Below, piece after piece: positions 4,713 through 42,566 of a stretch of DNA of 42,566 nt (positions within the stretch are counted from its first letter, which is position 1; each line of letters starts with the position of its first letter). The notes under the pieces are model-generated. The model worked only from the letters and a program-made list of their open reading frames with translations. It had not been told where the DNA came from and did no database searches. The DNA is taken from the NCBI GenBank assembly GCA_024225395.1, contig JAAEMR010000140.1, forward strand, positions 1-42,566, given 5' to 3'. The stretch is from Gammaproteobacteria bacterium (GTDB lineage Bacteria > Pseudomonadota > Gammaproteobacteria > GCA-001735895). Both the position numbers and the translations under genes were made by a program.

Positions 4713-5663
4713 TTAAAATGCATCAAAAAACTTCTCAGAGAATAAGTTCAATTCACTTTCAGAAAGCTGATTAATGCCTGCAGCAGCCTTTCTACCGCCA
4801 CCCGACGCAAATTGACGGCATAATTCATCTGCACCGGTTTTATTATCCATTGGTGCTCTAACGCTTACCCGGTAACAGTTGGCACCGCACTCTACCAGCA
4901 CAGCATGTGCACGCGACCTATGCTCCCTGGCCAGATCATTTGAAAAAACCCCGTTCACTCTGCGAGACCAGGGCTGATCAGGAAGTATATAGATAGCACC
5001 ATTGTCCCTGGCATCCAGGGCTGATAATTGATGTGTTTTTTCTATGTCCTGATGATAGGCGGTTAATAATTTCTGATAGCCTTCTGTTTTAATAAAATCG
5101 AGTGGGTTTTCATACGGCCTGACGAGTTCAAATAAATCTGCCGGGTTATAAACCAGGTCTTCCACGGTGAACCCATATCCATTGTAATTCAGGCAGATAC
5201 CCAGTTCTTTAAGAGCCGCTCTATCTTCTTTGCTCACTGCAAACCTGTCTGCTAAAGCTTCTGCAGAATCAAACATATTATCACCATAAGCACCGGTAAT
5301 TGCCCAGGCATAAAATTTATCATTCAGGAATTTGTTAATAATTAAACTGGTGCAGGTATCGGCATCTGTATCGATATGAATTTCAAGCCGGTCCGACTCA
5401 ATCGTTTCTCCAGCAAAGTGGTGATCTGCATAAAAAACCTGTGCCCCGGCATCAATTGCAGCCTGAACACCATCCCTGTTTTTATCAAACGATATATCCA
5501 GCGCAGTGATTTCATCATTTTCTCCAGCCGTAATTTTAGAAAACAGATTAATGTCTCTTTTAATGCCGGTTATAAGCGTTGTTTGTCTCGGTTGATGTAA
5601 GCGTAGTTGTTGCAGTGCACAAATACCATCTGCATCACCATTGAATAAGTCGTAAGCGGTCAT
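4713..5663 (-). CDS. DHH/DHHA1-family phosphoesterase
   Basis: The 316-residue protein has N-terminal acidic metal ligands in NGDADG (8-13), a central ALDIS (54-58), the family-naming DHH at 80-82 (YADHHFAG), and an aspartate-containing DADT near residue 97. A C-terminal DHHA1-type substrate-binding motif appears as SGGGRKAAAG (287-296). DHH proteins are Mn-dependent phosphoesterases (RecJ, oligoribonuclease/pAp phosphatase and cyclic-dinucleotide hydrolase types). The protein is too short for RecJ, and no N-terminal sensor or CBS domain is present, so it is a stand-alone soluble enzyme. Its substrate cannot be assigned; a short nucleic acid, pAp or cyclic dinucleotide is possible. The gene appears monocistronic, with intergenic palindromes on both sides. 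Confidence 0.85.
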   Translation of the reverse strand: MTAYDLFNGDADGICALQQLRLHQPRQTTLITGIKRDINLFSKITAGENDEITALDISFDKNRDGVQAAIDAGAQVFYADHHFAGETIESDRLEIHIDTDADTCTSLIINKFLNDKFYAWAITGAYGDNMFDSAEALADRFAVSKEDRAALKELGICLNYNGYGFTVEDLVYNPADLFELVRPYENPLDFIKTEGYQKLLTAYHQDIEKTHQLSALDARDNGAIYILPDQPWSRRVNGVFSNDLAREHRSRAHAVLVECGANCYRVSVRAPMDNKTGADELCRQFASGGGRKAAAGINQLSESELNLFSEKFFDAF

Positions 5664-22993: not shown

Positions 22994-23821
22994 TTACCTC
23001 TTATTCCTACGACGGACAATCAAGTTGTCAGTACGTTTATTAGTACGAGTCTTCTTACCTTTAGTAGGCATACCCCATGGAGAAACAGGATGACGACCAC
23101 CAGAAGTACGACCTTCACCACCACCGTGCGGATGATCAACCGGGTTCATAGAAACACCACGAACCGTTGGTCTAACGCCTCTCCAGCGTTTAGCACCCGC
23201 CTTACCCAGTGAACGCAAACTATGCTCACCGTTTCCGACTTCACCAAGAACCGCACGACATTCCGATAAAACTTTACGCATCTCACCCGAACGCAGACGA
23301 AGCGTTGAATAAGCACCATCACGAGCGACAAATTGAACAGAAGTTCCAGCAGAACGCGCCATTTGCGCACCTTTACCAGGCTTCAGCTCTACACAATGTA
23401 AAATAGAACCGACCGGGATGTTACGCAGTGGAAGACAGTTACCCGGCTTCATTCCAGCAGAATCACCAGAGCGAACCTTATCTCCAGCTTTAACACCTTT
23501 AGGAGCGATAATATAGCGACGCTCTCCATCAGCATATTTAAGAAGAGCAATATGTGCACTTCTATTTGGATCATATTCAACTCTTTCTACTACGGCTTCG
23601 ATCCCATCTTTATTACGCTTGAAATCAATAGCTCTGTATCGCTGCTTATGACCACCACCAATGTGGCGAGTAGTTATACGACCGCCGTTATTACGACCAC
23701 CGCTTTTAGTTTTCTTTTCTACCAGATTAGCAAGAGGCTTGCCTGTATATAAACCGGGGGTTTTAACCGATACAACGAAACGGCGACCCGGTGAGGTAGG
23801 TTTAGCTTTAATTAATGCCAT
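22994..23821 (-). CDS. rplB: 50S ribosomal protein L2
   Basis: The 275-residue protein is required for subunit association and peptidyl transferase assembly. It has [33 protein letters not shown]-type N-terminal sequence (starting near residue 40) and the near-invariant C-terminal loop [26 protein letters not shown], whose histidine (equivalent to E. coli His229) lies close to the catalytic centre. Confidence 0.98.
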
Positions 23822-23826
23822 CTTTA

Positions 23827-24126
23827 TTATCCACCCACAACCGCAAGATCAATTTCATGACCCTGCTCTAGAGAAACATAAGCTTTTTTCCAGCCGCTTC
23901 GATTACCTAAACGAGCACCCTGACGTTTCGTCTTACCTTTAACATTAGCAGTACGAACTCTGGACACCTTAACTTTAAAAAGCTGCTCAATTGCTGCCTT
24001 TATTTCTTCTTTTTTCGCATCTACAGCAACTTTAAATACATGCTGATTTGATGCATCACCGATAATAGCGGCTTTTTCAGAAATATGAGGAGCCCTTATA
24101 ACCTGAAAAACTCTCTGATCATTCAT
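23827..24126 (-). CDS. rplW: 50S ribosomal protein L23
   Basis: The 99-residue protein at the tunnel exit is the docking site for trigger factor and SRP. Segments are [50 protein letters not shown] and [15 protein letters not shown]. Its ATG overlaps the rplD TGA by four bases (ATGA). Confidence 0.97.
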
Positions 24127-24731
24127 GACAGACGCTCCTCTAACTTTTTCAACGCTGCCTGGTCGACAATAACTTTTTCCTGACTAACCAGACTCAATGG
24201 ATCAACAATCGCAACATCCATAACCATCAGGTTAGGCACATTACGCGCTGCAAGATAAACCGCGGAATCAAGACCATCAGTTAAAACAAGAGCTTTATTA
24301 CCAACCCCTATCTCTGCCATCCGGGCAACCATTAATTTAGTCTTTGGTTCAGCAACCGTCATCTCATCTACAACAATCAAACGGTCCTGTCTAAGCAATT
24401 CTGAAACAATGCTACGCATACCAGTGCGATACATTTTTTTATTCAATTTCTTACCATAATCACGTGGACTTGCAGCGAAAGTTGTTCCACCGCTACGCCA
24501 CAAAGGACTACGTATAGTACCTGCACGAGCACGGCCAGTACCTTTTTGACGAAATGGCTTAGCACCACCACCTCTAACATCAGAACGAGTTTTCTGTGCT
24601 TTAGTACCAGCGCGAGAAGCACTCATAAAAGACACGACTAACTGATGCACGAGAGTTTCATTAAATTCAGCCGAAAAAGCAGCATCTGATACAGATACTT
24701 TTTCGCTGGAGTTATGTATTGAAATATCCAT
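24123..24731 (-). CDS. rplD: 50S ribosomal protein L4
   Basis: The 202-residue protein has a long tunnel loop ([41 protein letters not shown]), unaltered at positions linked to macrolide resistance, and a globular body. In E. coli L4 represses its own operon through the S10 leader. That leader is upstream of rpsJ in E. coli; here any equivalent would be in the rplC leader (25379-25483). Confidence 0.97.
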
Positions 24732-24745
24732 GACTCTATATTCTC

Positions 24746-25378
24746 TTAACCTTTAACAGCAGGTGTAATAACAACATTGCTACTTTTAGATCCAGGAACC
24801 GGTCCTCTTATAAGAACAAGGTTACGCTCGGAATCAACACGAACAATTTCTAAATTCTGGGTAGTCTGCTTTACAGCACCCATGTGACCAGACATTTTCT
24901 TTCCCTTAAAGACTCGACCTGGAGTCTGGTTCTGACCAATCGAACCCGGCGCACGGTGAGATACCGAGTTACCGTGAGTAGCATCCTGCATCTGGAAGTT
25001 ATAACGCTTTATAACACCCGCATAACCTTTACCTATAGTAGTACCAGAAACATCTACTTTTTGACCTTGCTCAAACATATCAAGCTTCAATTCTGAACCA
25101 AGCTCAAAGTCTTCCACCGAATCCACACGAAACTCCATAGAGAGTCGCCCAGCTTCAACGCCAGCCTTTCTAAAATGACCAGCCATTGCTTTTGTAACAC
25201 GATTAGGACGTCGTGAACCTGTAACCACCTGAACTGCAGTGTAACCATCGGTATCCACAGTTTTAAGCTGTGAGACACGGTTAGGCTCAACTTCGATTAC
25301 AGTAACCGGAGTCGATACACCGTCATCAGAGAAAACCCTGGTCATACCTACTTTTCGTCCAACTAAACCGAGAGACAT
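24746..25378 (-). CDS. rplC: 50S ribosomal protein L3
   Basis: The 210-residue assembly-initiator protein starts [20 protein letters not shown] and contains the loop near the peptidyl transferase centre ([42 protein letters not shown]), with the glutamine methylated in E. coli (Gln in GQNQTPG). It is the first gene after a 205-bp gap with its own promoter, so the large S10-type transcript starts here instead of at rpsJ. Confidence 0.98.
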
Positions 25379-25442
25379 TTCTAACCCCTAATCATATCTT
25401 TTGAGAATATCTTGTTGATATTACTCGTCTTTTTAAAACTAA

Positions 25443-25472
25443 CGGCCTGATACAGAGAACCGTATCAGGCCG
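25443..25472 (-). terminator. Strong hairpin between rpsJ and rplC (terminator and/or 5' leader hairpin)
   Basis: CGGCCTGATAC (25443-25453) and GTATCAGGCCG (25462-25472) form a perfect 11-bp stem with an 8-nt loop. On the minus strand it is followed by TTAGTTTTAAAAAG, a modest T-rich tract. It lies beyond the rpsJ stop, fitting termination of the str operon, but also begins about at the predicted start of the rplC transcript. Confidence 0.75.
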
Positions 25473-25483
25473 CGAGGGCGCGC

Positions 25484-25512
25484 ACTATAACAGAATATTA
25501 CGAAATAGTTAA
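25484..25512 (-). promoter_or_regulatory. Sigma70-like promoter for rplC and following ribosomal genes
   Basis: On the minus strand TTAACT (25512-25507), a 17-bp spacer, TATAGT (25489-25484), then a GCGCGCCC discriminator. The -10 matches consensus at five of six bases. The start would be near 25476, just before the hairpin at 25443-25472, leaving a leader of about 100 nt for rplC. Confidence 0.7.
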
Positions 25513-25583
25513 GGACTATTCAGTAAATACTTATTATTTTTTTATACGCTAAACTCCCTCTATACCTAAATAAAAATCAAGCC

Positions 25584-25895
25584 TTAATTAAGCTTAATTT
25601 GAACATCTACACCTGCTGCCAGATCAAGCTTCATCAAAGCATCAACCGTCTTGTCAGTAGGGTCTACAATATCCATTAAACGCTTATGCGTTCTAATCTC
25701 ATATTGATCACGCGCATCTTTATTAACGTGCGGAGAGACCAGGATAGTAAAACGCTCTTTACGCGTAGGTAAAGGGATAGGCCCTTTAACACGTGCACCG
25801 GTACGCTTTGCTGTATCCACAATTTCAGATGCAGAACGATCAATTAAACGATGATCAAATGATTTCAAACGAATACGAATATTTTGATTAGCCAT
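25584..25895 (-). CDS. rpsJ: 30S ribosomal protein S10 / NusE
   Basis: The 103-residue protein begins [19 protein letters not shown] and contains [40 protein letters not shown]. Besides its 30S role it binds NusB and NusG (encoded at 41320-41853) in antitermination and transcription-translation coupling. It lies 6 bp after tuf and is separated by 205 bp from rplC, so here it belongs to the str transcript. Confidence 0.98.
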
Positions 25896-25901
25896 GTCTA
25901 T

Positions 25902-27092
25902 TTACTCAATAATTTTAGCAACAACACCCGCACCAACTGTACGTCCACCTTCTCTGATGGCGAAGCGTAATCCTTCTTCCATCGCGATAGGCGCAATCAG
26001 TGTTACCGTCATTTTAATGTTATCACCAGGCATGACCATTTCCACACCTTCTGGAAGATCACAGGCACCGGTTACATCCGTTGTACGGAAGTAAAACTGA
26101 GGACGATACCCATTAAAGAATGGCGTATGACGCCCACCTTCATCCTTTGACAGAATGTAGATTTCAGCTTCGAATATTGTATGCGGTGTAATTGAACCCG
26201 GAGCAGCAAGTACCTGACCACGTTCAACTTCTTCACGCTTGGTGCCACGCAACAGAATACCTACGTTATCACCGGCACGACCTTCGTCCAGTAACTTACG
26301 GAACATTTCAACACCCGTACAGGTTGTCTTAACCGTATCCTTGATACCGACGATTTCAATTTCTTCACCAACTTTGACAATACCACGCTCGATACGACCG
26401 GTAACCACCGTTCCACGACCTGAGATTGAGAACACGTCTTCAACCGGCATGATGAAATCACCATCAATAGCACGCTCGGGTTCTGGTACGTATGTATCCA
26501 GAGCTTCAACCAGCTTCATGATAGATGGAACACCGATATCACTTTGATCACCTTCCAGGGCTTTCAGCGCTGAACCGATAACAATAGGAGTATCGTCACC
26601 CGGGAATTCGTACTGATCCAGCAGTTCACGAATTTCCATTTCTACTAATTCAAGTAATTCTTCATCGTCAACCATGTCCGCTTTGTTCATGTAGACAACA
26701 ATGTAAGGTACGCCAACCTGACGAGATAACAGGATGTGCTCACGTGTCTGAGGCATTGGACCGTCAGCCGCTGAACAAACCAGAATAGCGCCGTCCATTT
26801 GAGCAGCACCAGTAATCATGTTCTTGACATAATCCGCGTGACCCGGGCAGTCTACGTGTGCGTAGTGACGGGCTGTAGATTCATATTCAACGTGAGACGT
26901 TGCAATAGTAATACCACGCTCTCTTTCTTCAGGGGCATTATCGATTTCATCGAATGCTTTAACTTCGCCACCTTGTGCTTCGGCCATGACTTTGGTTAAC
27001 GCCGCTGTTAACGTCGTTTTACCATGATCCACGTGACCAATCGTTCCCACGTTTACATGGGGTTTGTTTCTTTCAAATTTTTCCTTTGACAC
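25902..27092 (-). CDS. tuf: Elongation factor Tu (copy 1)
   Basis: The 396-residue GTPase delivers aminoacyl-tRNA. G1 is GHVDHGKT (19-26), G3 DCPGH (81-85), G4 NKAD, followed by the two beta-barrel domains ending [15 protein letters not shown]. It starts with GTG, GTG-TCA-AAG, preceded by GAGGT. It sits between fusA and rpsJ, the tufA position. A second copy begins at the right edge of the window (42438) and the 129 shared bases differ at one synonymous position. Confidence 0.98.
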
Positions 27093-27150
27093 GACCTATA
27101 TACCTCTTACAAACCTAATATTAAATACTAACCAATTAAATAAAATAAAA

Positions 27151-29244
27151 CTAAAATCCGCTCTTAATCACGGATTTAACAACCGCCTTCGGCGCTTCCT
27201 CATATTTCTCGAACTCCATTGAGTAGGTAGCTCGACCCTGAGTCGCAGAGCGAAGATCTGTTGCATAACCAAACATTTCGGCAAGCGGCACCGAAGCGCG
27301 AATAATTTTTCCAGCCGGTGCATCATCCATGCCGTGAACTACTCCACGACGCCGATTTAAATCACCCATGACATCTCCCATATACTCTTCGGGAGTTACC
27401 ACTTCAATACTCATCAACGGCTCTAACAAGGCTGGTGAAGCATTTAAGGCACCTTCTTTAAGCGCCATCATTCCTGCCAGTTTGAAAGCCATTTCGTTCG
27501 AATCAACATCGTGATACGAACCGTCATACAGCGTTACCTTGATATCTACCATGGGAAAACCACCCAGGACACCATTATGTAACTGCTCCTGTATCCCTTT
27601 ATCAATTGACGGGATGTATTCTTTTGGAACGACACCACCCACAACTGCATTTTCAAATTCATAACCAGAACCGGGTTCTTTTGGCTCAAGTTTAAGCCAA
27701 ACATGGCCATACATTCCGCGACCACCCGATTGACGTATAAACCGCCCTTCCTGCTCGACCGTGTTGCGTATCGTTTCACGATATGAAACCTGTGGCTTAC
27801 CGATATTCGCCTGAACTTTAAATTCACGCTGCATTCGATCCACTATAATTTCCAGATGAAGCTCACCCATTCCGGAAATAATAATCTGCCCAGACTCTTC
27901 ATCTGTTTTAACATGGAAAGAAGGGTCTTCACGGGTTAATTTACCCAGCGCAATACCCATCTTTTCCTGGTCAGCCTTCGTCCTTGGCTCAACCGCAACA
28001 GCAATAACCGGATCAGGAAACTCCATTCGTTCAAGCGTAATAGGAGCACCTATGTCACACAAAGTGTCGCCTGTTGTTACCTCTTTAAGCCCGACAGCCG
28101 CAGCTATATCTCCAGCCCGAACTTCTTTAATCTCGTCTCGATGATTGGCATGCATCTGTAAAATACGACCAACCCGCTCTTTCTTTCCTTTAACCGGATT
28201 ATAAATCGAATCCCCGGATTTCAATACTCCAGAGTACACCCTGAAAAACGTCAGATTTCCAACAAATGGATCTGTCGCTATTTTAAAGGCAAGTGCTGCA
28301 AACGGCTCCTTATCATCAGGATGACGCTCACCTTCTTTTTCATTTGGCAGAACACCCTTAATTGAGGGTACATCTGTCGGAGAAGGCATATAAAACACAA
28401 TTGCATCCAGAACTGCCTGGACACCTTTATTCTTAAAAGCACTTCCGCAAAAAGTCGGTACAATTTCTCCGGCCAGTGTTCTTATCCGAATCCCCTGATG
28501 TATCTCATCTGCATTCAGGTCACCTTCTTCAAGGTACTTTTCCATCAGCTCATCATTGGCTTCGGCCGCTGACTCAACCATGTGTTCACGCCATTTATTA
28601 CAGACATCAACCAATTCTGCCGGGATATCTTCTTCAATATAGGTAGCCCCCATATTGTCTTCATCCCAGATGATCGCCTTCATCTTTACCAGGTCAATAA
28701 CACCCCTGAAATCTTCTTCAGCACCAATATTTACCTGCATTGGTACCGGGTTGCTACCCAGTCGCGTTTTTATCTGATCGACAACACGCAAAAAATCAGC
28801 ACCTGCACGATCCATCTTGTTGATGAATGCCATGCGCGGCACATGATATTTATTAGCCTGACGCCAGACTGTCTCGGACTGGGGCTCTACGCCACCAACC
28901 GCACAAAAAACGGCACATGCGCCATCCAGCACACGCAAACTTCTTTCCACTTCGATAGTGAAATCAACGTGGCCCGGCGTATCAATTATATTGATACGAT
29001 GTTGTTCAAACTGCCCGTCCATCCCTTCCCAGAAGCAGGTCGTTGCAGCCGAAGTAATGGTAATACCTCTTTCCTGCTCCTGCTCCATCCAGTCCATGGT
29101 TGCAGCACCATCATGCACCTCACCTATTTTATGAGATACACCGGTATAATATAAAACTCTTTCCGTAGTTGTTGTTTTGCCAGCATCGATATGAGCCATG
29201 ATACCAATATTACGGTATTGACTAATCGGGGTCGTACGCGCCAC
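27151..29244 (-). CDS. fusA: Elongation factor G
   Basis: The 697-residue translocase GTPase begins [25 protein letters not shown] (G1 at AHIDAGKTT), with G3 DTPGHVDF and G4 NKMDR. Domains II-V follow, ending [20 protein letters not shown]. It moves tRNA-mRNA and, with ribosome recycling factor, splits ribosomes. The start is GTG (29244-29242). The gene is in the classic rpsL-rpsG-fusA-tuf order, 58 bp before tuf. Confidence 0.98.
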
Positions 29245-29268
29245 AACAGTTTCCTTAACTTAAATTTT

Positions 29269-30143
<875 letters not shown>

Positions 30144-30280
30144 ATTGCTCAGTTCTCCGACATGAGTAGCATTTTATTACTCAATATACTTACAGAAAGA
30201 CCAGCTGCCTTAATAAAACCGGGATAAATATAAACTTATACTCGATTTAAATATTAACAACTGTCTGGTCCCAAAAATAA

Positions 30281-30314
30281 ACGACAGCTCACATAATAAA
30301 ACACGAGCTGTCGT
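30281..30314 (-). terminator. Hairpin after rpoC (terminator and/or 5' hairpin of the rpsL transcript)
   Basis: ACGACAGCTC (30281-30290) and GAGCTGTCGT (30305-30314) give a perfect 10-bp stem, followed on the minus strand by TTATTTTTGGG, a good U-tract. It lies 68 bp past the rpoC stop and ends the rpoBC transcript. It also lies immediately downstream of the rpsL promoter start site. Confidence 0.85.
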
Positions 30315-30326
30315 CAGGGAGGCGGA

Positions 30327-30355
30327 ATTTTAGGGCTGAAGATGCAATCTGTCAA
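30327..30355 (-). promoter_or_regulatory. Sigma70 promoter of the str operon (rpsL-rpsG-fusA-tuf-rpsJ)
   Basis: On the minus strand a consensus TTGACA (30355-30350), exactly 17 bp, then TAAAAT (30332-30327), followed by a C-rich discriminator TCCGCCTCCC. It lies 27 bp past the rpoC stop. The start is expected near 30319, only about 5 nt before the hairpin at 30281-30314. The leader to rpsL is about 175 nt. Confidence 0.82.
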
Positions 30356-30381
30356 CCGCTAAATAACATTACGCCGTTTTT

Positions 30382-33300
30382 TTACTCAACTACTGTTTTT
30401 TCCGAGTCAGAATCGACCTGCGTTGCAGCTAATTCTGAAATCATATTCGCCTCACTATCCTCACCTGCATTCTCAGGAATAACAGGCATTAGAGGTTGTA
30501 TACGTTCAGCGCGTCGTTTTTCGTGATACTTCTGACCGGTTCCCGCAGGAATCAATCGACCCACAATGACATTTTCCTTCAATCCTCGTAATGGATCTTT
30601 AGCGCCTTTCACGGCTGCCTCGGTTAGCACTCGAGTCGTTTCCTGGAAAGATGCTGCAGAAATAAACGATTCAGTGACCAGAGATGCCTTGGTAATACCC
30701 AGCAAGTCCTGAGTAAAAGTAGCAGGCAACTTGTTATGCGCAATAGCCTTATCATTTGCATCCAGAACGCGAGACTTATCAACCTGATCACCCTTCAGCA
30801 TACGTGTTCCGCCACCATCGGTGATGGTAACCTTACGTAACATCTGACGTACGATAACTTCAATATGTTTATCGTTGATACCAACACCCTGTAAACGGTA
30901 AACATCCTGTACTTCTTTAACCATATAATTGGTTAACTCGGTAACACCTTTGACTCGAACAATATCGTGTGAATCCAGTTCACCATCGACCAGCATTTCA
31001 CCTTTATCGACAAACTCACCTTCAAATACGTTGATATGACGAAACTTGGGAATCAATGTCTCCAGAGACTCACCTTTGTCATTGGTAATAACAAGACGCT
31101 TTTTACCTTTCGTTTCCTTACCGAATGAAACCGTACCCTTCATTTCAGCCAGTACCGCAGGCTCTTTTGGTTTACGAGCTTCAAACAGATCCGCAACACG
31201 TGGTAAACCACCCGTAATATCTCGGTTTTTAGATGATTCCTGTGGAATTCTGGCGATTACATCACCCACTTCAATGGATGAACCATCTTCTACGTTAACA
31301 AAAGCCCCGCCAGGTAACATGTAATGTGCAGGTATACTGGTGCCGGCATAACACAGAGATTCACCTTTATCATCAATCAATTCTATGGTCGGACGTAATT
31401 CCTTACCCTGGTTAGAGCGAATAGCATCGTCCATGACTTCAATTGAGCTTAGACCGGTAATATCATCCATTTTATGCTGAACAGTAACCGCTTCAACAAA
31501 CTCTCTAAATTTAACCGTACCTGCAACCTCGGTAATAACGGGGTGCATATGAGGATCCCAGTTGGCAATTGTTTGTCCAACTTCAACCTTGTCCCCATCA
31601 TTAACACTAAACTCAGATCCGTAGGTAATTTTATAACGCTCTTTCTCTCGTCCATCAACATCGATAACGGCAATTTCACCAGAACGTGAAACAGATATAT
31701 TTTTACCTGCCGAGTTGGTCACTGTTTTAACATTATTAAATTTAACAGTACCCTTATTTTTAATTTCGATACTGTTTACCGATGCAGAACTACTTGCAGC
31801 ACCACCAATATGGAAAGTACGCATAGTCAACTGAGTACCCGGCTCACCGATAGACTGCGCAGCAATAACACCCACTGACTCACCCTTGTTAACCAGGTGG
31901 CCTCGAGCTAATTCACGACCATAACAGGCGGCACAGATGCCATAACGAGCTTCACAGGCAACCGGAGAACGAACCAGCAGTTCATCAACACCCAGTTCAT
32001 GGATCTGGTCCACTTCCTTCTCTTCGATTAGAGCGCCCCTGGGAATAACGACATTGCCACCCTTATCTTCAATATCTACCTGGGTAACACGACCCAGAAT
32101 ACGCTCACCTAACTCAACGGTAATATCACCACCTTCGATAACCGGACGCATCAGGATACCATCCTGAGTACCACAGTCATCATGTGCGACAACCAGATCC
32201 TGGGATACATCAACAAGACGACGCGTCAGGTAACCCGAGTTAGCCGTTTTGAGTGCCGTATCGGCCAGACCTTTACGTGCTCCGTGAGTAGAAATAAAGT
32301 ACTGCAGTACGTCGAGACCTTCACGGAAGTTCGCCGTGATCGCATTTTCGATGATTGATCCATCAGGTTTAGCCATCAGACCACGCATACCCGCCAACTG
32401 ACGAATCTGAGCCGGGCTACCACGAGCACCAGAATCGGCCATCACGAAGATCGAGTTAAATGAATCCTGCTTAACATCATTACCTTCAGCATCGACCACT
32501 GTTTCGGTACCCAGTTTATCCATCATCGCACGAGCAACCTTGTCATTCGCATGAGACCAGATATCAACAACCTTGTTGTAACGCTCACCCGAGGTTACAA
32601 GACCAGTAGACCACTGCTTTTCTATTTCTTTGATTTCAGTTTCTGCCACATCCAGAATTGTTGCTTTTTCATCCGGAATAACCATGTCGTTGACGCCAAT
32701 CGAAATACCCGATTGCGTTGCATAACGATAGCCTGTGTACATCAGCTGATCAGCTAATATAACGGTATCTTTCAAACTTACATCACGATAACAGGCGTCA
32801 ATCATTGCTGACACGGCCTTTTTATCGAGCGCTTTGTTGATCAGGTCGAAAGACATACCTTTAGGCAATAACTCACTGAGAATTGCTCTTCCGACTGTCG
32901 TTTCGATAAGGCGCTTTTCTGCAGTTTCATTGCCCTCATCGTCTACCGAATACTCGGTAACGCGAAATTTAATTCGTGCCTGAAGTTTGCAACAGTGATT
33001 ATTGTAGGCACGCAAAACTTCTTTGGCATCAGCGAAGATCATGCCTTCACCATGCACATTAATCATTTCACGTGTCATGTAATACAGACCAAGAATAATG
33101 TCCTGTGTAGGCACAATAATTGGCTTGCCGTTAGCAGGCGACAGGATATTGTTAGTCGACATCATCAGGGTACGAGCTTCTAACTGCGCTTCAATCGATA
33201 GAGGTACGTGTACCGCCATCTGATCACCATCAAAATCCGCATTAAATGCAGTACAAACGAGTGGATGTAACTGAATCGCCTTACCTTCAATCAGGGTTGG

Positions 33301-34614
33301 CTCGAAAGCCTGAATACCAAGACGGTGAAGCGTTGGTGCTCTGTTCAGCATAATAGGATGTTCGCGGATAACTTCTTCCAGGATATCCCAGACTTCTGTT
33401 ACTTCACGCTCAACCAGTTTCTTTGCGGCTTTAATGGTAGTCGCCAGGCCACGTAATTGCAGCTTGCTAAAGATAAAAGGCTTGAACAGTTCCAGTGCCA
33501 TCTTCTTCGGCAGACCACATTGATGCAGACGTAATGTGGGTCCAACTACGATAACCGAACGACCCGAGTAATCGACACGTTTACCCAGCAGGTTCTGACG
33601 GAAACGACCCTGCTTACCCTTGATCATATCTGATAAAGATTTCAGCGGACGCTTGTTAGTTCCGGTGATGGCTCGCCCACGACGACCATTATCCAGTAGC
33701 GCATCGACTGATTCCTGCAACATACGCTTTTCATTTCGAACGATGATATCAGGAGCACTCAGCTCAAGCAGACGTTTCAAACGGTTATTACGGTTAATAA
33801 CGCGACGATACAGATCGTTCAAATCTGATGTTGCAAAACGGCCACCATCCAGAGGTACCAGAGGACGTAAATCAGGTGGTAATACCGGCAATACCGTCAT
33901 TACCATCCATTCCGGCTTATTCCCGGAATCGATAAAATATTCAACCAGCTTCAAACGCTTGGACAATCGCTTAAATTTAGTTTCAGACTTGGTAGACGCG
34001 ATTTCTTCACGCAGAGTAATTGCTTCGGAGTGAAGGTCGACAGCTTTCAGCAATTCAAAGACAGCTTCAGCACCCATCTTGGCATTAAAGTCATCACCGA
34101 ATTCTTCGATAGCTTCCAGATACGATTCATCTGTTAACAGCTGACTTTTTTCCAGCGTCGTCATACCCGGGTCAATAACCACAAAACCTTCAAAATACAA
34201 TACACGCTCAATATCACGCAGCGTCATATCCAGCAACAGGCCGATACGAGATGGCAATGACTTCAGAAACCAGATATGTGCGATAGGACAGGCCAGTTCA
34301 ATATGACCCATACGATCACGACGTACTTTAGTCTGGGTAACTTCTACACCACACTTTTCACACACAACGCCACGATGCTTAAGACGTTTATATTTTCCGC
34401 AAAGACATTCGTAATCTTTAACCGGACCAAAAACTTTTGCACAGAATAAACCATCACGTTCCGGTTTAAAGGTACGATAATTGATAGTTTCCGGCTTTTT
34501 AACTTCACCATAAGACCACGAGCGAACCATGTCCGGAGAGGCCAGGCCAATACGGATATGATCAAAATCATCATCCTGTGCGGATTGCTTTAATAAATTG
34601 AGTAAATCTTTCAT
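30382..34614 (-). CDS. rpoC: RNA polymerase beta' subunit
   Basis: The 1410-residue catalytic subunit begins [28 protein letters not shown]. It has the N-terminal zinc site ([20 protein letters not shown]), the Mg2+-binding active-site loop [12 protein letters not shown], and the bridge-helix and trigger-loop region around [27 protein letters not shown] second zinc cluster ([19 protein letters not shown]) and the C-terminal [10 protein letters not shown] tail follow. It lies 42 bp after rpoB. Length is near the 1407 of E. coli. Confidence 0.98.
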
Positions 34615-34656
34615 TTTTTCTCCTGTTGCCTAAATCGATTCTGATTAACCAGTGGT

Positions 34657-37600
34657 TTAGTCATTTTCGAGATCAATATTCAAGCTTAAAGAGCGAATTT
34701 CTTTAAGCAACACGTTAAATGATTCTGGTATCCCGGCTTCCATACTAAAGTTACCATCAACAATATTTTTATACATTTTGTTACGACCGTTCACGTCGTC
34801 AGACTTAACCGTCAACATTTCCTGTAACGTATAAGCTGCACCATAAGATTCAAGCGCCCAGACTTCCATCTCACCAAAACGCTGACCACCAAACTGTGCT
34901 TTACCACCGAGAGGTTGTTGCGTAACGAGACTGTAAGGCCCTGTTGAACGTGCATGCATTTTGTCATCAACCAGGTGATTCAGTTTCAACATATACATGT
35001 AACCAACCGTTACCGGGCGATCAAAAGCTTCACCGGTGTGACCGTTATACAAAATAGTTTGACCTGACTCAGGTAAATCCGCCAGCTTCAGCATTGTGCG
35101 GATATCTTCTTCCTCGGCACCGTCAAATACGGGGGTAGCCATCGGAACACCTTTGCGCAGGTTGTCGCACATTTCCATGACTTCATCATCATTAAACTGC
35201 TCAAGGTCGAGCTTTTCAGCGCGGTAGTTATAAACTTTACCGAGGAACTCTCGCATCTTTTGAGCTTCATTATGCTGATCCAGCATCTTACCTATTTTAA
35301 GCCCAACTCCTTTTGCAGCCCATCCAAGATGAGTTTCAAGCACCTGTCCAACATTCATACGAGAAGGCACACCCAGAGGGTTTAAAACCACATCAACCGG
35401 AGTTCCGTCTTCACGGAAAGGCATGTCTTCTTCAGGCACGATCATCGAAACCACACCCTTGTTACCATGACGTCCAGCCATCTTGTCACCCGGCTGCATA
35501 CGACGCTTAACCGCAATGAAAACTTTAACCATTTTCAGTACGCCCGGCGCCAGGTCATCACCCTGAACAACTTTCTTTTTCTTTTCTTCGAATAATTCAT
35601 CGAAGTTACTACGCTGAACACTTAACTGCTCACCCAGGTCTTCAGCCTGCTTACTGATAGCATCATCACTGACACGAATTTTCAGCCAGTCTTCCCTGGA
35701 GATAGAATTTAAATATTCAGTGCTGATTTCACTGCCCTTCTTCAGTCCGTCAGGACCACCATCAGCTTTCTGACCAACCAGTAAACTGGACAGACGAGAG
35801 TAAATATTACCCTCTATGATTCTAAACTGATCATCCAGATCTTTTCTCAGCGATCTGATTTCATATTTTTCAATTTCCAGAGCACGAGCATCTTTTTCAA
35901 CACCATCACGGGTAAAAACACGCACATCGATAACCGTACCAACTGTTCCAGCTTTAACACGTAACGACGTATCTTTTACATCGAGTGCTTTTTCACCAAA
36001 AATAGCACGCAGTAGTTTTTCTTCAGGTGTTAACTGAGTTTCACCTTTAGGCGTAACTTTACCGACCAGAATATCTCCGCCTTTAACTTCTGCACCGACA
36101 TAAACAATGCCAGACTCATCCAGTTTAGAAAGTAAACCTTCGCTGACATTAGGAATATCTGCGGTAATTTCTTCAGAACCTAGCTTGGTATCACGGGCAA
36201 GACAGCTCATTTCTTCGATATGTATGGTCGTAAAACGGTCTTCTTTTACTACACGCTCAGATAGCAGGATGGAATCCTCAAAGTTGTATCCATTCCACGG
36301 CATAAAGGCAACCTGCATATTCTGCCCCAGTGCTAATTCACCCAGATCGGTTGAAGCACCATCAGCTAATACGTCTCCAGCGGCAACTTCATCACCCGGT
36401 TTTACGATTGGTTTCTGGTTAATACAGGTGTTCTGATTAGAACGCGTATATTTAGTGAAATTATAAATATCAACACCCGGGTCACCCACTTCTGTTTCAT
36501 TTTCATTAACACGAATAACCACGCGACTTGCATCGACCGAGTCAATGATTCCGCCACGTTTAGCCTTCACGGTCGTACCGGAGTCAACAGCAACTGCACG
36601 CTCCATACCCGTTCCAACTAAAGGTTTGTCAGCACGTAAACAGGGAACAGCCTGACGTTGCATATTTGATCCCATCAAGGCACGGTTCGCATCATCGTGT
36701 TCCAGAAATGGAATCATTGACGCGGCTACCGATACGATCTGCTTGGGAGAGACATCCATGTAATCGATCTTGTCAGAAGACGACAGCATAAATTCGTTTT
36801 GAAAACGACAGGGGATTAAATCACCCTGCATCTTACCGTTTTTATCGACATCGACATTGGCCTGAGCAATTGAAAATTTACTCTCTTCGATAGCTGACAG
36901 GTAAACGACTTCATCAGTAATTATTCCATCAGTAACTTTTCGATAAGGTGTCTCAAGAAAACCATAATGATTCGTTCTTGCATAAACTGACAATGAGTTG
37001 ATCAAACCGATGTTTGGTCCCTCAGGCGTTTCGATAGGGCAAACACGACCATAATGCGTTGGGTGTACGTCTCGAACTTCGAAGCCTGCTCTTTCACGCG
37101 TTAAACCACCCGGCCCTAATGCAGAAACACGACGCTTGTGAGTCACCTCGGAAAGAGGATTATTCTGATCCATAAACTGGGATAACTGACTGGAGCCAAA
37201 GAATTCTTTTACTGCAGCCGCTACAGGCTTGGCATTGATAATATCCTGTGGCATTAAACCTTCAGATTCAACCAGGCTTAAACGATCACGAACTGCGCGT
37301 TCAACACGAACCAAACCGGTACGGAAAGCATTTTCAGCCATTTCGCCAACGCTTCTAATACGTCTATTACCCAGATGGTCGATATCATCAACTATACCGT
37401 TACCATTACGGATATCGATTAACTCTTTCATGACTTCCAGAATATCTTCTGTAGACAGAGTACCTTCACCAGTTACTTCATCACGTCCAAGGCGGCGATT
37501 AAATTTCATTCGCCCTACTTCTGACAGATCATAACGCTCAGAGTTAAAGAACAGATTCTGAAACAGGTTTTCTGCCGAATCTTTTGTAGGTGGCTCACCG

Positions 37601-38727
37601 GGACGCATCATGCGATAGACTTCAACCATGGCTTCCAGCACATTCGTGGTTGGATCAAGAGCCAGAGAATTCGAGATAAAAGGTCCTTTATCAACTTCAT
37701 TGGTATAAATCGTTTTGAACGCCTTAACACCTTTCTCACGCATCATTTCCAACAGTTCAGGTGTGATTTCTTCATTAGCATTGGCGATCATCTCACCGGT
37801 TTCTTTATCAACCAGGGCCTCAGCCAGGATTTTCCCGGTAAGGAAGTCTTCGGGTACAACCAGATTTTTAATTCTGGCTGCGTTTAATTTTTTCACATGC
37901 AGAGCTGTAATACGTCGACCCTGAGGAACAATAACTTCACCTTTGACTGCTATATCAAATGTTGCTGCCTCGCCCTTTAATCGCTCTGGCACCAACACCA
38001 TGTCGATAGAGTCTTTTTTCAGTTTGAAATTATCATGATCAAAGAAGGTATCCAGCATTTGCTCGGTTTCATAACCTAGAGCACGTAACAGGATAGTTGC
38101 AGGTAGTTTGCGACGACGATCGATACGAACAAACAGCGCATCTTTAGGATCAAATTCAAAATCCAGCCATGATCCGCGATAAGGTATTACACGGGCATTA
38201 AATAACAACTTACCAGAACTGTGAGATTTACCTTTATCATGATCAAAAAATACACCGGGTGAACGATGCAACTGTGAAACGATGACTCGTTCAGTACCGT
38301 TAATGACAAAGGTACCGTTTTCGGTCATCAGGGGCATTTCGCCCATATAAACTTCCTGCTCTTTAATCTCTTTAACAGAGCGATTTTTAGCAGAAGCCTC
38401 TTTATCATAGATAACCAGCTTGACCAGCACGCGTACAGGCGCTGAATAGGTTAATCCACGAACCTGACATTCTTTAACATCGAATACAGGATCACTGATC
38501 CGGTAGCTGACAAACTCAAGCTCAACCGCACCAGAAAAACTTATAATAGGAAATATCGACTTAAAAGCACTCTGCAAACCGGTACCTTCAAATCCACCAC
38601 TATCAGACTTAAGAAAACGTTTATAGGAATCTACCTGAATTGCCAGTAGGTAAGGTTCTTTGATAACTGCGGGACGTTTACCAAAATCCCTGCGAATACG
38701 TTTTTTCTCAGTGAATGAGTAAGCCAT
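34657..38727 (-). CDS. rpoB: RNA polymerase beta subunit
   Basis: The 1356-residue subunit begins [19 protein letters not shown] and has the rifampicin pocket [38 protein letters not shown] with the sensitive-type Asp, His and Ser residues (E. coli D516, H526, S531). Active-site stretches include [26 protein letters not shown] and the C-terminal clamp [33 protein letters not shown]. It follows rplL after a 174-bp gap carrying two hairpins. Confidence 0.98.
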
Positions 38728-38831
38728 TTAATTTCCTCATTGAAAAATTTTTTGTAAATTTAAATTTATAAAAAACTTTCTATATTCATATATCGCTATA
38801 AAGTTAACATCATAACGAACAAACAGATGCA

Positions 38832-38858
38832 GGCCGATGACTTTAACAGTCATCAGCC
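38832..38858 (-). terminator. Hairpin in the rplL-rpoB gap (probable attenuator)
   Basis: GGCCGATGAC (38832-38841) and GTCATCAGCC (38849-38858) pair over 10 bp with one G-U pair and a 7-nt loop. In E. coli the rplL-rpoB gap holds a partial terminator and an RNase III site that set the ratio of ribosomal protein to polymerase subunits; this hairpin is in the matching place. No long U-tract follows, consistent with partial termination or processing. Confidence 0.6.
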
Positions 38859-38871
38859 CACATCTTAATGC

Positions 38872-38889
38872 CTGGATGCAAGCATCCAG
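38872..38889 (-). other. Short hairpin directly after rplL
   Basis: CTGGATGC and GCATCCAG form an 8-bp perfect stem with a two-base AA centre, 13 bp after the rplL stop. Together with the following 10-bp hairpin it could make a processing site between rplL and rpoB. Role is inferred from position only. Confidence 0.5.
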
Positions 38890-38901
38890 TCGAGCTTCAA
38901 T

Positions 38902-39279
38902 TTACTTGAGTTCGACTTCTGCACCAGCTTCCTGCAACTGCTTCTGAACATCTTCAGCTTCAGCTTTAGTAACGCCTTCTTTAACCGCAACAGGAACACT
39001 TTCTACCATTCCTTTTGCTTCTTTCAGGCCTAAACCTGTAATTGCACGTACTGCTTTAATGACTGAAACCTTATTAGCACCAAAACTGGTCATCATAACG
39101 TCAAATTCATCTTTTTCTTCTTCTGCTGCCGCGTCTCCGCCAGCAGCTGCTGGTGCTGCTGCAACTGCTGCTGCCGCTGAAACACCAAATTTTTCTTCCA
39201 TTGCAGAAATTAGGTCAACGACCTCCATTACTGACATGTTAGAAATTGCTTCCAAAATATCGTCTTTAGAAACTGCCAT
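38902..39279 (-). CDS. rplL: 50S ribosomal protein L7/L12
   Basis: The 125-residue stalk protein has an N-terminal dimerisation region ([34 protein letters not shown]), an Ala/Gly-rich hinge ([20 protein letters not shown]) and a C-terminal factor-binding domain ending [19 protein letters not shown]. It is present in several copies per ribosome on L10 and stimulates EF-Tu and EF-G GTPase. Confidence 0.98.
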
Positions 39280-39324
39280 TTTAATTCTCCTAAAACAGAA
39301 ATATATTTAAAAAATACTACAAAA

Positions 39325-39849
39325 TTATGCTTGCTTTGAATCACGTACTGCAGCAACAGTTCGAACCAACTTGCCAGGTACTTCATTAAGAGTACGAGTA
39401 AGTTTTTCGACAGGTGCTTTCATAACGGCCATCAATAAGCTGATTGCCTGGTCTCGAGTCGGCAGAGATGCAAGGCGTTTAATTTCCGATGGATCCAGTA
39501 GCTCACCATTAAAGGCAACCAACTTAACCACCAGCTTTTCATTTTTACCGGCAAAGTCCTTAATAACGCGTGCTGCGCTACCAGGCTCTTCCAGTGAAAA
39601 TGCAAACACTAGCTGACCGCTTAGTGAATCACCCATGCAATCAAAATCTGTCCCATCAAAAGCACGCTTAGCCAGCGTATTTTTAACTACCTTAAGGAAC
39701 ACATTCGATTCACGAGCAGATGCACGTAACTCGGTCATATCTGCAACCGTCAAGCCCTGGTACTCAGCAGCAATTACAGAGTGTGCAGTTGACGCAACTT
39801 CGGCGACTTCTGTCACAACAGCCTGTTTTTGCTGTAGGTTTAAAGGCAT
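39325..39849 (-). CDS. rplJ: 50S ribosomal protein L10
   Basis: The 174-residue stalk base begins MPLNLQQKQAVVTEVAEVASTAHSVIAAEYQGLTV and ends in a helical L12-binding tail (LNEVPGKLVRTVAAVRDSKQA). In E. coli the L10-L12 complex represses translation of its own mRNA through the leader upstream, and a structured leader is present here at 39850-40095. Confidence 0.98.
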   Translation of the reverse strand: MPLNLQQKQAVVTEVAEVASTAHSVIAAEYQGLTVADMTELRASARESNVFLKVVKNTLAKRAFDGTDFDCMGDSLSGQLVFAFSLEEPGSAARVIKDFAGKNEKLVVKLVAFNGELLDPSEIKRLASLPTRDQAISLLMAVMKAPVEKLTRTLNEVPGKLVRTVAAVRDSKQA

Positions 39850-40095
39850 ATCAAGTTCTCCTGATTAATAAACCACAATGCTGAACAAGTAACATTCAGC
39901 CTCTTTCCTTTTCCAAACAGGTCATTAACACAACCCGCCTGATTCCTTAACGATCTTCTTAACCAGGTATTCCTGTCTCAGAGGATCATCTACGCAGGAC
40001 ATTAAGTGTTAAAATAAATCAACACACCTACGGTCTTTGACGAGTAGTCGCTACCGGAGCAGCAACTTTCTCAAAGATCTTTTAACAATCGAAAT
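39850..40095 (-). promoter_or_regulatory. rplJ leader (L10-type autoregulatory leader), no gene
   Basis: The 246-bp gap between rplA and rplJ has no reading frame. It folds plausibly on the minus strand: an outer stem CTTTGA/TCAAAG (40076-40071 with 40040-40035) encloses GTTGCT/AGCGAC (40066-40061 with 40052-40047). A second purine-rich, base-paired part follows (around GGAATACCTGG at 39980-39965). Position and length match the L10-L12-binding leader of gammaproteobacteria. The precise L10 site was not modelled. Confidence 0.65.
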
Positions 40096-40797
40096 CTAGT
40101 TACCAACTTCCAAACTGGATTGATCGACTGCTACACCTGCTCCCATCGTTGTGGAAACAGAAATTTTCTGTAAATAAATACCTTTAGCTGACGCCGGCTT
40201 AGCTTTCTTCAGATCAATCAGCAAAAATTCCAGGTTCTGACGTAACTGATCAACATCAAAGCTGGACTTACCGATAGAGCAGTGAATAATTCCACCTTTA
40301 TCAGTACGGTAACGAACCTGACCTGCTTTAGCATTCTGAACAGCACCTTCTACATTAGGAGAAACCGTTCCAACTTTTGGGTTAGGCATCAAACCGCGAG
40401 GACCCAGTAACTGACCTAACTGCCCAACAATACCCATAGCATCAGGGCTTGCAATAACCACATCATAGGCGATATCACCACCTTTCATAGAATCAGCAAG
40501 ATCCTGCATACCAACAACATCGGCACCAGCTGCTTTAGCTTTTTCTGCATTTTCACCCTGAGTGAAAACAGCAACGCGAACTGTTTTGCCAGTTCCGTTA
40601 GGCAGTACAGATGAACCACGTACATTCTGATCAGATTTACGAGGGTCAACACCCAGGTTAATCGCAGCATCTACTGATTCATCAAATTTAGCAGTACTTA
40701 ATTCTTTTAATAACGCTAATGCGTCATTAATTGCATATTGGCGAATCGGATCTACCTTTTCGGCAATATTTTTCATGCGTTTACTTAATTTGGCCAT
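40096..40797 (-). CDS. rplA: 50S ribosomal protein L1
   Basis: The 233-residue L1-stalk protein helps E-site tRNA release. It begins [27 protein letters not shown] and has [41 protein letters not shown] and the end [13 protein letters not shown]. The frame is open seven codons further upstream into rplK; Met8 (40797) matches homologues and was chosen. It starts 1 bp after the rplK stop. Confidence 0.97.
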
Positions 40798-40798
40798 G

Positions 40799-41230
40799 TT
40801 ACACACCCTCCACATCAAGACCCATACTACGGGCGCTACCAGCGATAATTTTTACTGCTGCATCCATATCATTGGCATTTAAATCTTTCATTTTAGTAGT
40901 AGCAATTTCTTCAAGTTGCGCACGCGTCACCTTTCCAATCTTAGTCGTATTGGGTTCTCCACTACCTTTTGCGACACCTGCTGCCTTTTTCAGTAAAACT
41001 GAAGCAGGAGGAGTTTTCATGATAAAAGTAAAGCTCTTATCACTGTAAACAGAAATAACAACCGGAACAGGTATTCCCTTTTCCATTTCCTGAGTTTGCG
41101 CATTAAAGCCTTTGCAGAATTCCATGATATTCAAACCATGTTGACCCAGAGCCGGACCTACCGGTGGACTAGGGTTTGCTTCGCCTGCAGGAACCTGCAG
41201 CTTGATATAATTTTCTATTTTTTTAGCCAT
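40799..41230 (-). CDS. rplK: 50S ribosomal protein L11
   Basis: The 143-residue GTPase-centre protein begins [44 protein letters not shown]. It has the N-terminal proline-rich domain that thiostrepton contacts and a C-terminal RNA-binding domain ending [19 protein letters not shown]. It is needed for RelA activation in the stringent response. Met8 of the longer open frame was chosen from family alignment in memory. Confidence 0.97.
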
Positions 41231-41290
41231 TACAATATCTCCCGGGTGCAAACGGACTACTTAGTTTCGCCCTCCCCAACAATATAAACA

Positions 41291-41315
41291 AAGGGTGGCC
41301 ACAGGGACCACCCCT
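41291..41315 (-). terminator. Hairpin between nusG and rplK
   Basis: GGGTGG (41293-41298) and CCACCC (41308-41313) pair, extended by a G-U and a G-C pair. On the minus strand TTTGTTTATATTG follows. It lies 5-29 bp past the nusG stop. It may separate secE-nusG from rplKAJL-rpoBC, as in E. coli, or be a processing site. Confidence 0.6.
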
Positions 41316-41319
41316 ACAA

Positions 41320-41853
41320 TTAACCTTTTTCTACCTGAGAAAATTCCAGCTCTACGGGCGTTGAACGTCCAAAAATTTGCACTGAAACCAGCATTTTGCT
41401 TTTTTCGTAATTCACTTCTTCGACGACACCGTTAAAATCATTAAACGGACCATCATTAACACGAACAACTTCTCCAACCTCAAACAGCACCTTGGGTTTA
41501 GGACTATCAACGCCCTCTTCCACACGATTCAGGATTGAATTGGCTTCCGCATCAGTTATTGGCGCAGGTTTATCACTGGTACCACCAATAAAACCCAGCA
41601 CCTTAGGCACTTCCTTTACCATATGCCAGGTATCTTCATTCATATCCATTTCCACCAGCACATAACCGGGGAAAAATTTTCTTTCACTGCGACGCTTCTG
41701 CCCATCTCTCATCTCCACTACTTCTTCAGTGGGGACCAGTATCTGACCAAACAGATCCTGAAACGGAGAAGCAGCGACACGACTCTCCAGAATTTTCTTA
41801 ACCTGAGCTTCAAAACCCGAATAGGCGTGAACTACATACCAACGCATTGCCAT
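41320..41853 (-). CDS. nusG: Transcription termination/antitermination factor NusG
   Basis: The 177-residue factor has an N-terminal NGN domain ([20 protein letters not shown], then [32 protein letters not shown]) that binds the polymerase clamp, and a C-terminal KOW domain ([53 protein letters not shown]) that binds Rho or S10. The open frame extends 18 codons upstream into secE; the ATG at 41853 fits the family length and lies 10 bp after secE. Confidence 0.97.
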
Positions 41854-41863
41854 AATTCTTACC

Positions 41864-42235
41864 CTATCCCAGTATGGACTTGATGCCCCAACCCAGAAAC
41901 ATGTCAATCAACCAAAGCATAATGGCTACTATTAACACCATAACCAGCACCGCTATTGTTGTTTGAGTCGTTTCCTGGCGGGTAGGCCAGACTACTTTTC
42001 GAACTTCTACCCGGGCATCCTTAGCAAAGCCGAGCGATTTTTTACCGATTAAAGTTGTAGCAACAATTAAAAATGAAACCACAACGACAGCAAGAATGCC
42101 AAGCACACGAAAAAGCTGAGACTCTTCTTTAAAATAATAAAAACCTATAATTCCTGCGACCAGAATCATCAGTGAAACCAGTAGTTTCACGGTATCTAGT
42201 CCGGAAGAAACCTGTTGTTCGGTCTTTGTGACCAC
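41864..42235 (-). CDS. secE: Preprotein translocase subunit SecE
   Basis: The 123-residue protein has three membrane segments ([61 protein letters not shown]) and the conserved amphipathic [17 protein letters not shown] before the last. The start is taken as GTG at 42235, with AGGGG seven bases upstream. The longer frame to 42385 runs antisense-free through tRNA-Trp and is not coding. SecE clamps SecY (15359-16705). Confidence 0.93.
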
Positions 42236-42262
42236 TGAATAACCCCTGCAGTAAATGTTAAA

Positions 42263-42338
<76 letters not shown>

Positions 42339-42389
42339 AATATAAATTTGGCATCGCCTGCAACTAAAAATACTATCAGCCACAAACGA

Positions 42390-42422
42390 AAGGGCGGGGA
42401 TGGTAGCCCATCTCCCGCCCTT
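42390..42422 (-). terminator. Large hairpin after tuf copy 2
   Basis: AAGGGCGGG (minus strand) pairs with CCCGCCCTT, and inside it GATGG with CCATC around a GCTA loop, giving 14 bp with one bulged A. TTCGTTTG follows. It starts 15 bp after the tuf stop. It may terminate tuf or be cut to separate tuf mRNA from tRNA-Trp-secE. Confidence 0.65.
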
Positions 42423-42437
42423 ATGCAATGAGTTTAT

Positions 42438-42566
42438 TTACTCAATGATTTTAGCAACAACACCCGCACCAACTGTACGTCCACCTTCTCTGATGGCGAA
42501 GCGTAATCCTTCTTCCATCGCGATAGGCGCAATCAGTGTTACCGTCATTTTAATGTTATCACCAGG
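42438..42566 (-). CDS. tuf: Elongation factor Tu (copy 2), C-terminal part cut by window edge
   Basis: The last 42 codons and TAA of a second tuf are visible, encoding PGDNIKMTV through [14 protein letters not shown]. It differs from copy 1 at a single third-position base (Ile codon ATC here, ATT there, next to the end). It stands before tRNA-Trp, the tufB position. Such near-identity is usual for tuf pairs kept alike by gene conversion. Confidence 0.95.

Follow-up and report, generated by a model that had tools for sequence, protein, structure and literature searches.

We propose, with a probability of about 0.45, that a single stem-loop at the 5' end of the str (rpsL-rpsG-fusA-tuf) message both ends the preceding rpoBC transcript and acts early on new str transcripts, whether by pausing, by terminating part of them, or as a 5' structure. 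In this tentative model, which is drawn from sequence comparison, the rpsL promoter sits after the rpoC stop codon but ahead of the intrinsic terminator that would end rpoBC. Polymerases arriving from rpoBC would meet the hairpin and its U-tract and stop, and polymerases starting at the rpsL promoter would make the same hairpin as the first 40 nt of their RNA. A fraction of these new transcripts would pause or stop there, through early termination that could be constitutive or modulated by factors, and the remaining polymerases would make str mRNA with the hairpin at its 5' end. If this is true, one hairpin links two essential operons, encoding the RNA polymerase core on one side and S12, S7, EF-G, and EF-Tu on the other, by ending one message and beginning the next, and str expression is gated just after promoter escape.

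The rpoC-rpsL boundary of the window, by which we mean the whole 42,566-nucleotide stretch of DNA analyzed, has the following features:

30382..34614, minus strand: the preceding gene, which we take to be rpoC from the usual gene order and its translation; its stop at 30382 lies 27 nt from the rpsL -35 (sequence)
30350..30355, minus strand: -35 element TTGACA of the rpsL (str) promoter (direct reading and scan; in 23 of 23 family rpsL loci)
30327..30332, minus strand: -10 element TAAAAT of the rpsL promoter (direct reading and scan)
30321..30326, minus strand: G+C-rich discriminator TCCGCC (sequence; nearly invariant in family alignment A2)
30320, minus strand: predicted rpsL +1, the 7th base after the -10 hexamer (placed from the -10 spacing)
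30144..30320, minus strand: rpsL leader, 177 nt (sequence)
30280..30315, minus strand: 5'-terminal hairpin of 15 pairs with a 6-nt loop, from predicted +6 (scan, fold, and family covariation)
30273..30281, minus strand: U-rich, terminator-like tail UUUAUUUUU (reading and scan)
29772..30143, minus strand: rpsL, the first gene 3' of the leader (sequence)

Read along the minus strand from rpoC to rpsL, the order is promoter, TCCGCC, TCCCT, hairpin (30315-30280), and UUUAUUUUU, with the promoter alone occupying the space between the rpoC stop codon and the hairpin. The sequence-only reading of this DNA had described a near-perfect TTGACA-17-TAAAAT promoter at this boundary, with a start about 5 nt before a hairpin, and both descriptions hold. 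The promoter matches 11 of 12 consensus positions and is the sole 11/12 site found by scan in positions 23000 to 42566; the predicted +1 is at 30320 and the hairpin runs from 30315, which leaves about 5 unpaired nt 5' of the stem, given this predicted start site. By itself, an 11/12 promoter is at chance level (1 in the window versus 0.98 per dinucleotide shuffle), and the case for its reality rests on conservation, not on its match score in the window. The 10-bp hairpin with a U-tract described earlier is present but proved larger, its 10 perfect pairs (30314-30305 with 30290-30281) forming the core of the 15-pair stem. At -22.5 kcal/mol (z, -5.6), its stability was equaled in 0 of 200 shuffles. 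Together with its U-rich tail, it is the first stem plus U-tract downstream of rpoC, and our scan found nothing else terminator-like from 30382 to the rpsL promoter.

A search of the window genome's relatives with RpsL gave matches in 40 of 57 genomes, and within the window's family promoter and hairpin stand at the same place in 23 of 23 rpsL loci. In the family alignment A2, which like A3 was selected by the promoter motif and not by the hairpin, 9 of 12 pairs show compensatory changes; two-sided cells number 37 compared with 11 in shuffles, and 90.9% of cells are paired compared with at most 40.3% when the pairing is slid. The stem sequences differ between sister lineages, reading CGACAGCTC..GAGCTGTCG in the window's genus and GCAGGCTATAC..GTATAGCCTGC in genus g3. 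G-U cells outnumber A-C cells 38 to 3 in the family rpsL leaders, 22 to 7 in rplC leaders, and 32 to 2 in the class set A1, counts in which cells are not independent events and of which A1, being partly fold-selected, is the weakest. On the sense strand, A-C would be as acceptable as G-U to a DNA palindrome or an antisense RNA. Since G-U pairs far exceed A-C mismatches, the pattern is that of sense-strand RNA, and we conclude from these substitutions that the rpsL 5' stem-loop is conserved as RNA. The window's own assembly also holds a second RpsL-like gene, 82% identical (G000:C215:4341-4709; L002), which is either a paralogue or part of a contaminant contig.

Our class sample comprised 124 gammaproteobacterial rpsL loci, about one per family, from the 165 of 184 genomes with a match (7, 27, and 90 loci from successive fetches); most genomes of the sampled families, one contig-edge case, and the weakest, unlisted matches lie outside it. 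The best promoter score was at least 10 in 114 of the 124 loci. Stems of at least 6 bp starting by +20 occur in 110 loci (60% of shuffles), with a median start at +6 and a median end at +33, and the other 14 have none at the position. Stems of at least 10 bp occur in 79 of 124 loci, compared with 26% of shuffles and with 24 to 38% at displaced windows (31/123 to 47/124 upstream, 24/76 and 19/67 downstream). Stem starts run from -1 to +12 (5th to 95th percentile). Of the leaders with a good promoter, 38 are 110 nt or longer; in 19 of these, compared with 3.7 expected, the 36-nt window of greatest stability starts at most 10 nt from +1. The hairpin thus keeps its distance from the promoter and not from the start codon. 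Its tail is U-rich in many lineages, with at least 6 T in the 9 bases 3' of the stem in 52% of the 110 hairpins compared with 8% in the background. Among 80 named loci read, the layout is missing at many alpha- and betaproteobacterial ones. Conservation in relatives, on which the sequence-only reading had staked its proposal, was thus found in both family and class. Judged by these comparisons, the layout is not due to chance, and, as it is kept across Gammaproteobacteria, it is probably a real control element.

The arms GACAGGCC..GGCCUGUC are common to many gammaproteobacterial stems, and a recurrent stem is CGACAGGCCGG..CCGGCCTGTCGTTTGTTTTC. Alignment A1 consists of 48 sequences hand-picked from 77 references, mostly with CAGG/CCTG-like arms, which biases its sequence conservation upward; such arms also occur outside A1, for example in L164, L167, L177, and L239. 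In these arm-selected sequences, one C-G pair of the core is kept in 48 of 48 and its two neighbors in 47 of 48. The covariance model R1, built from A1, has 33 two-sided cells compared with 5 in shuffles. A search of 58 genomes with R1 gave matches in 24 at an E value of 0.01; the top 17 (at least 32.5 bits, in 17 of the 58 genomes) all lie at rpsL, as does a weaker 18th, four of these 18 being assigned by coordinates. With 21.4 bits (E, 0.026), the window hairpin counts as a diverged member. Its own genome contains two other weak matches, one scoring above it (24.2 bits) and one at 21.2 bits, with neither rpsL nor rpoC nearby. A genome-wide regulon of the same promoter and hairpin was also considered for this genome and rejected: one pattern search returned the rpsL site alone, a second returned the rplC site and one other that appears to lie inside a coding sequence, and a loose pattern gave 16 sites compared with 14 in the control, of which one besides rplC was inspected.

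The sequence-only reading had also seen the same layout at the rpsJ-rplC boundary. That copy is real:

25484..25512, minus strand: rplC promoter TTAACT-17-TATAGT with an extended -10 (upstream TG) (scan)
25442..25473, minus strand: hairpin at about +5 of the rplC transcript (scan; covariation in 26 sequences, 24 distinct)
25379..25477, minus strand: rplC leader, 99 nt, with the predicted +1 at about 25477 (sequence)

Among the relatives, 43 of 57 genomes yielded RplC. The motif TATA(G/T/A)T(G/A)CGCGCCC followed at once by a hairpin is present in 25 of 25 fetched family rplC loci and in L142, from another family, and the rplC alignment has 17 two-sided cells compared with 4.7 in shuffles; at four loci of other families (L140, L141, L143, and L144), the rplC-type promoter is absent before rplC. 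The suggested shared design applies to str and rplC of the window's family, and to L142, but not to ribosomal protein operons generally: in the window, the gaps before rplK, rplJ, rplL, rpoB, rpoC, tuf, and rpsM lack a promoter of comparable score plus a strong hairpin at +1. The tail 3' of the first rplC hairpin is GUUAGUUUUA in the window's genus and GCGCGUUCGA-like in g3. In most of the family, the first rplC hairpin runs into a CGUUCGAAA-like tail, which does not make a terminator, and the whole-leader scan found a U-run terminator at this hairpin in 0 of 25 family loci. With its hairpin kept and its U-tract lost, rplC in the window's family would be a natural test of our model.

At 104 of the 124 class loci, rpoC lies directly upstream of rpsL (83 by motif, 21 by tblastn), its stop a median of 52 nt before the rpsL -35. 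At 6 of 83 loci, a simple scan placed a terminator-like site 3' of the rpoC stop and ahead of the promoter; since the other 77 have none, rpoBC transcripts would usually meet their first candidate terminator in the rpsL 5' hairpin. Hairpins are terminator-like at 66 of 104 loci with rpoC upstream versus 11 of 27 without (Fisher p 0.047), and their median z is -2.9 with rpoC versus -1.6 without; the 27 loci are 18 from the class set, 8 named gammaproteobacterial loci, and E. coli, and L253 and L259, where the upstream contig ended, were omitted. Among rpoC-linked leaders below 42% G+C, 5 of 19 are terminator-like. The stronger hairpins beside rpoC favor a role in rpoBC termination, as a weak association confounded by A+T-rich leaders.

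The spacing, the usual lack of another terminator-like site, and the stronger hairpins beside rpoC would also be expected if the hairpin were the rpoBC terminator only, with the rpsL promoter packed upstream of it for space and new transcripts passing largely unaffected, for example owing to an interrupted U-tract or to early complexes resisting termination. We consider this unlikely. The hairpin is found without rpoC upstream in E. coli, Kosakonia, Citrobacter, Enterovibrio, Moritella, and Ignatzschineria, L030 keeps it despite a separate strong terminator 3' of rpoC, and the rplC hairpin is kept without a U-tract. In E. coli (L114), the str promoter is the same TTGACA-17-TAAAAT, with a hairpin at +1 and then GUUUUAUU, but the stem is shorter and of different sequence, and tusB replaces rpoC upstream. 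The earlier claim that the hairpin must terminate rpoBC survives in part: it is usually the first terminator-like structure after rpoC, but as a general rule it is not just an rpoBC terminator, as E. coli and other detached rpsL genes keep it. Its U-run is not uniform.

Within the window's family, a whole-leader scan found a U-run at the first rpsL hairpin in 10 of 23 leaders (L003, L005, L006, L007, and 6 of 16 in g3). Of the 13 first hairpins without one, 3 are followed by a second-hairpin terminator further down: in L004, L008, and L009, the first hairpin has lost its U-tract, and a stronger terminator, with at least 7 U, stands at the second (+52 to about +107). The remaining 10 of the 23 have no terminator at the first hairpin, L020 having a weak later site by scan. 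As the hairpin persists after loss of its U-tract, it therefore has some role of its own, and a terminator appears to be a recurring feature of the family rpsL leader, even where its place shifts. Early termination of new transcripts is plausible.

The survival of the hairpin in such rpsL leaders, and likewise in most rplC leaders of the family, together with its promoter-tied position, would suit a 5' structure that shields the mRNA from 5'-end-dependent decay, as in ompA, with termination incidental. The best-protecting 5'-terminal stems have fewer than about 5 unpaired nt ahead of them. The median stem start at +6 leaves about 5, and the clear U enrichment of the tail is needless for protection; we regard this explanation as unlikely.

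Attenuators in rpsL leaders have already been predicted (Naville and Gautheret 2010; RF01773), and the hairpin described here is a variant of them. What is new is its promoter-anchored position, the widespread stem consensus, and a geometry with almost no upstream RNA for an antiterminator; we found no description of a promoter-anchored, class-wide hairpin in the open-licence PMC literature. As in the rpsL leaders treated by Naville and Gautheret (PMC2965389), an intrinsic-terminator-like hairpin lies upstream of the rpsL start codon (in the window, 30315-30280 plus the U-rich tail). Those leaders are presented there without globally conserved sequence or structure and with antiterminators drawn, whereas here we find the shared stem GACAGGCC..GGCCUGUC, a promoter-tied hairpin, and about 5 nt of RNA before the stem. 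In the window, these 5 nt, a figure that depends on the predicted start site, leave no room for an antiterminator upstream of the stem. Because so little precedes the stem, control of the first hairpin by an upstream-leader antiterminator is not expected, and the remaining controls would be factors acting on polymerase or on the stem, or none. Antitermination through a boxA-like element in the pyrimidine start (TCTTT..) was dropped, as the predicted start would cut the box.

The third hairpin of RF01773 (rpsL_pseudo, the Pseudomonas rpsL leader), GGcgGggc..gccCcgCC with a U-rich tail, is the same feature at the same place. The window hairpin is ruled out as a member of this Rfam family: RF01773 (gathering threshold, 70 bits) has no match in the window, nor within 30100-30400 at E values up to 5. 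There was no RF01773 match at 20 other loci, and 3 of 10 loci matched, all Pseudomonas; apart from RF01773 in Pseudomonas, no Rfam family was found for the class hairpin (20 loci). In Pseudomonas L070, the RF01773 match (5364-5501) covers both the -35 and the -10 of the predicted rpsL promoter, beginning 15 bases before the -35 (5379), with the predicted +1 at 5414, and the second RF01773 hairpin corresponds to an inverted repeat that surrounds the -10. The first two RF01773 hairpins of this locus would then be promoter DNA and could form solely in rpoC read-through RNA. If our model is true, transcripts from the main promoter contain neither the antiterminators that have been drawn for rpsL leaders nor part of RF01773.

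A broader and doubtful version of the model makes the layout a promoter-anchored checkpoint throughout Gammaproteobacteria, wherein a terminator within the first 40 nt sets str output and insulates rpoBC, and which is not an RNA switch. The strength of that terminator would be read by polymerase and its factors (the initiating nucleotide, NusA/NusG, or ppGpp) or, alternatively, by a ribosomal protein on the GACAGG..CCUGUC stem. A regulated attenuator, in which a ribosomal protein or elongation factor acts on this stem or on polymerase and adjusts termination to growth, could explain why the stem core is conserved beyond the needs of pairing (48/48 and 47/48, in hand-picked arms). It would also agree with the premature 3' end of enteropathogenic E. 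coli (EPEC) rpsL, seen as a shorter RNA in stationary phase by northern blotting (PMC10687069), although this RNA may derive from another site. Nevertheless, we find it very doubtful: upstream RNA for an antiterminator is lacking, the core is lost or altered in the window's genus and in enterics, R1 has no consistent second target in the 58 genomes, and its matches above 30 bits all lie at rpsL, in 17 of them. A repressor binding to a DNA palindrome just 3' of the start site would account for the inverted repeat from +6 to +41 but has next to no chance of being correct, given the U-rich tail on the sense strand and the strong excess of G-U over A-C, which is unexpected of a DNA operator or antisense RNA and on which we rejected it.

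In E. coli, the known S7 feedback acts at the rpsL-rpsG junction, and the S10 leader, subject to L4 attenuation, is like ours a ribosomal protein operon leader with a terminator hairpin (PMC10931766). Unlike that leader, which lies upstream of rpsJ, the rplC copy lies between rpsJ and rplC, is short in the window's genus (99 nt), and has its first hairpin at about +5. This S10-operon promoter and leader (window 25379-25583) occupy the same place, after rpsJ and before rplC, in the family and in L142. In a P. aeruginosa 3'-end paper, rpsL is unmentioned in the main text (PMC8297930).

The rplC leaders of g3 are about 230 nt long (L122 to L127 and L129 to L139), and their last 135 nt or so contain a second structure, conserved and covarying, made up of three hairpins with 31 pairs, 13 of them with two-sided changes in 17 sequences. 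No Rfam match was found in L122 and L127, and we regard this structure as a candidate new ribosomal leader for the rplC operon. The window also has an 18-pair hairpin between rplL and rpoB (38825-38865); the corresponding gap in E. coli has an attenuator and an RNase III site.
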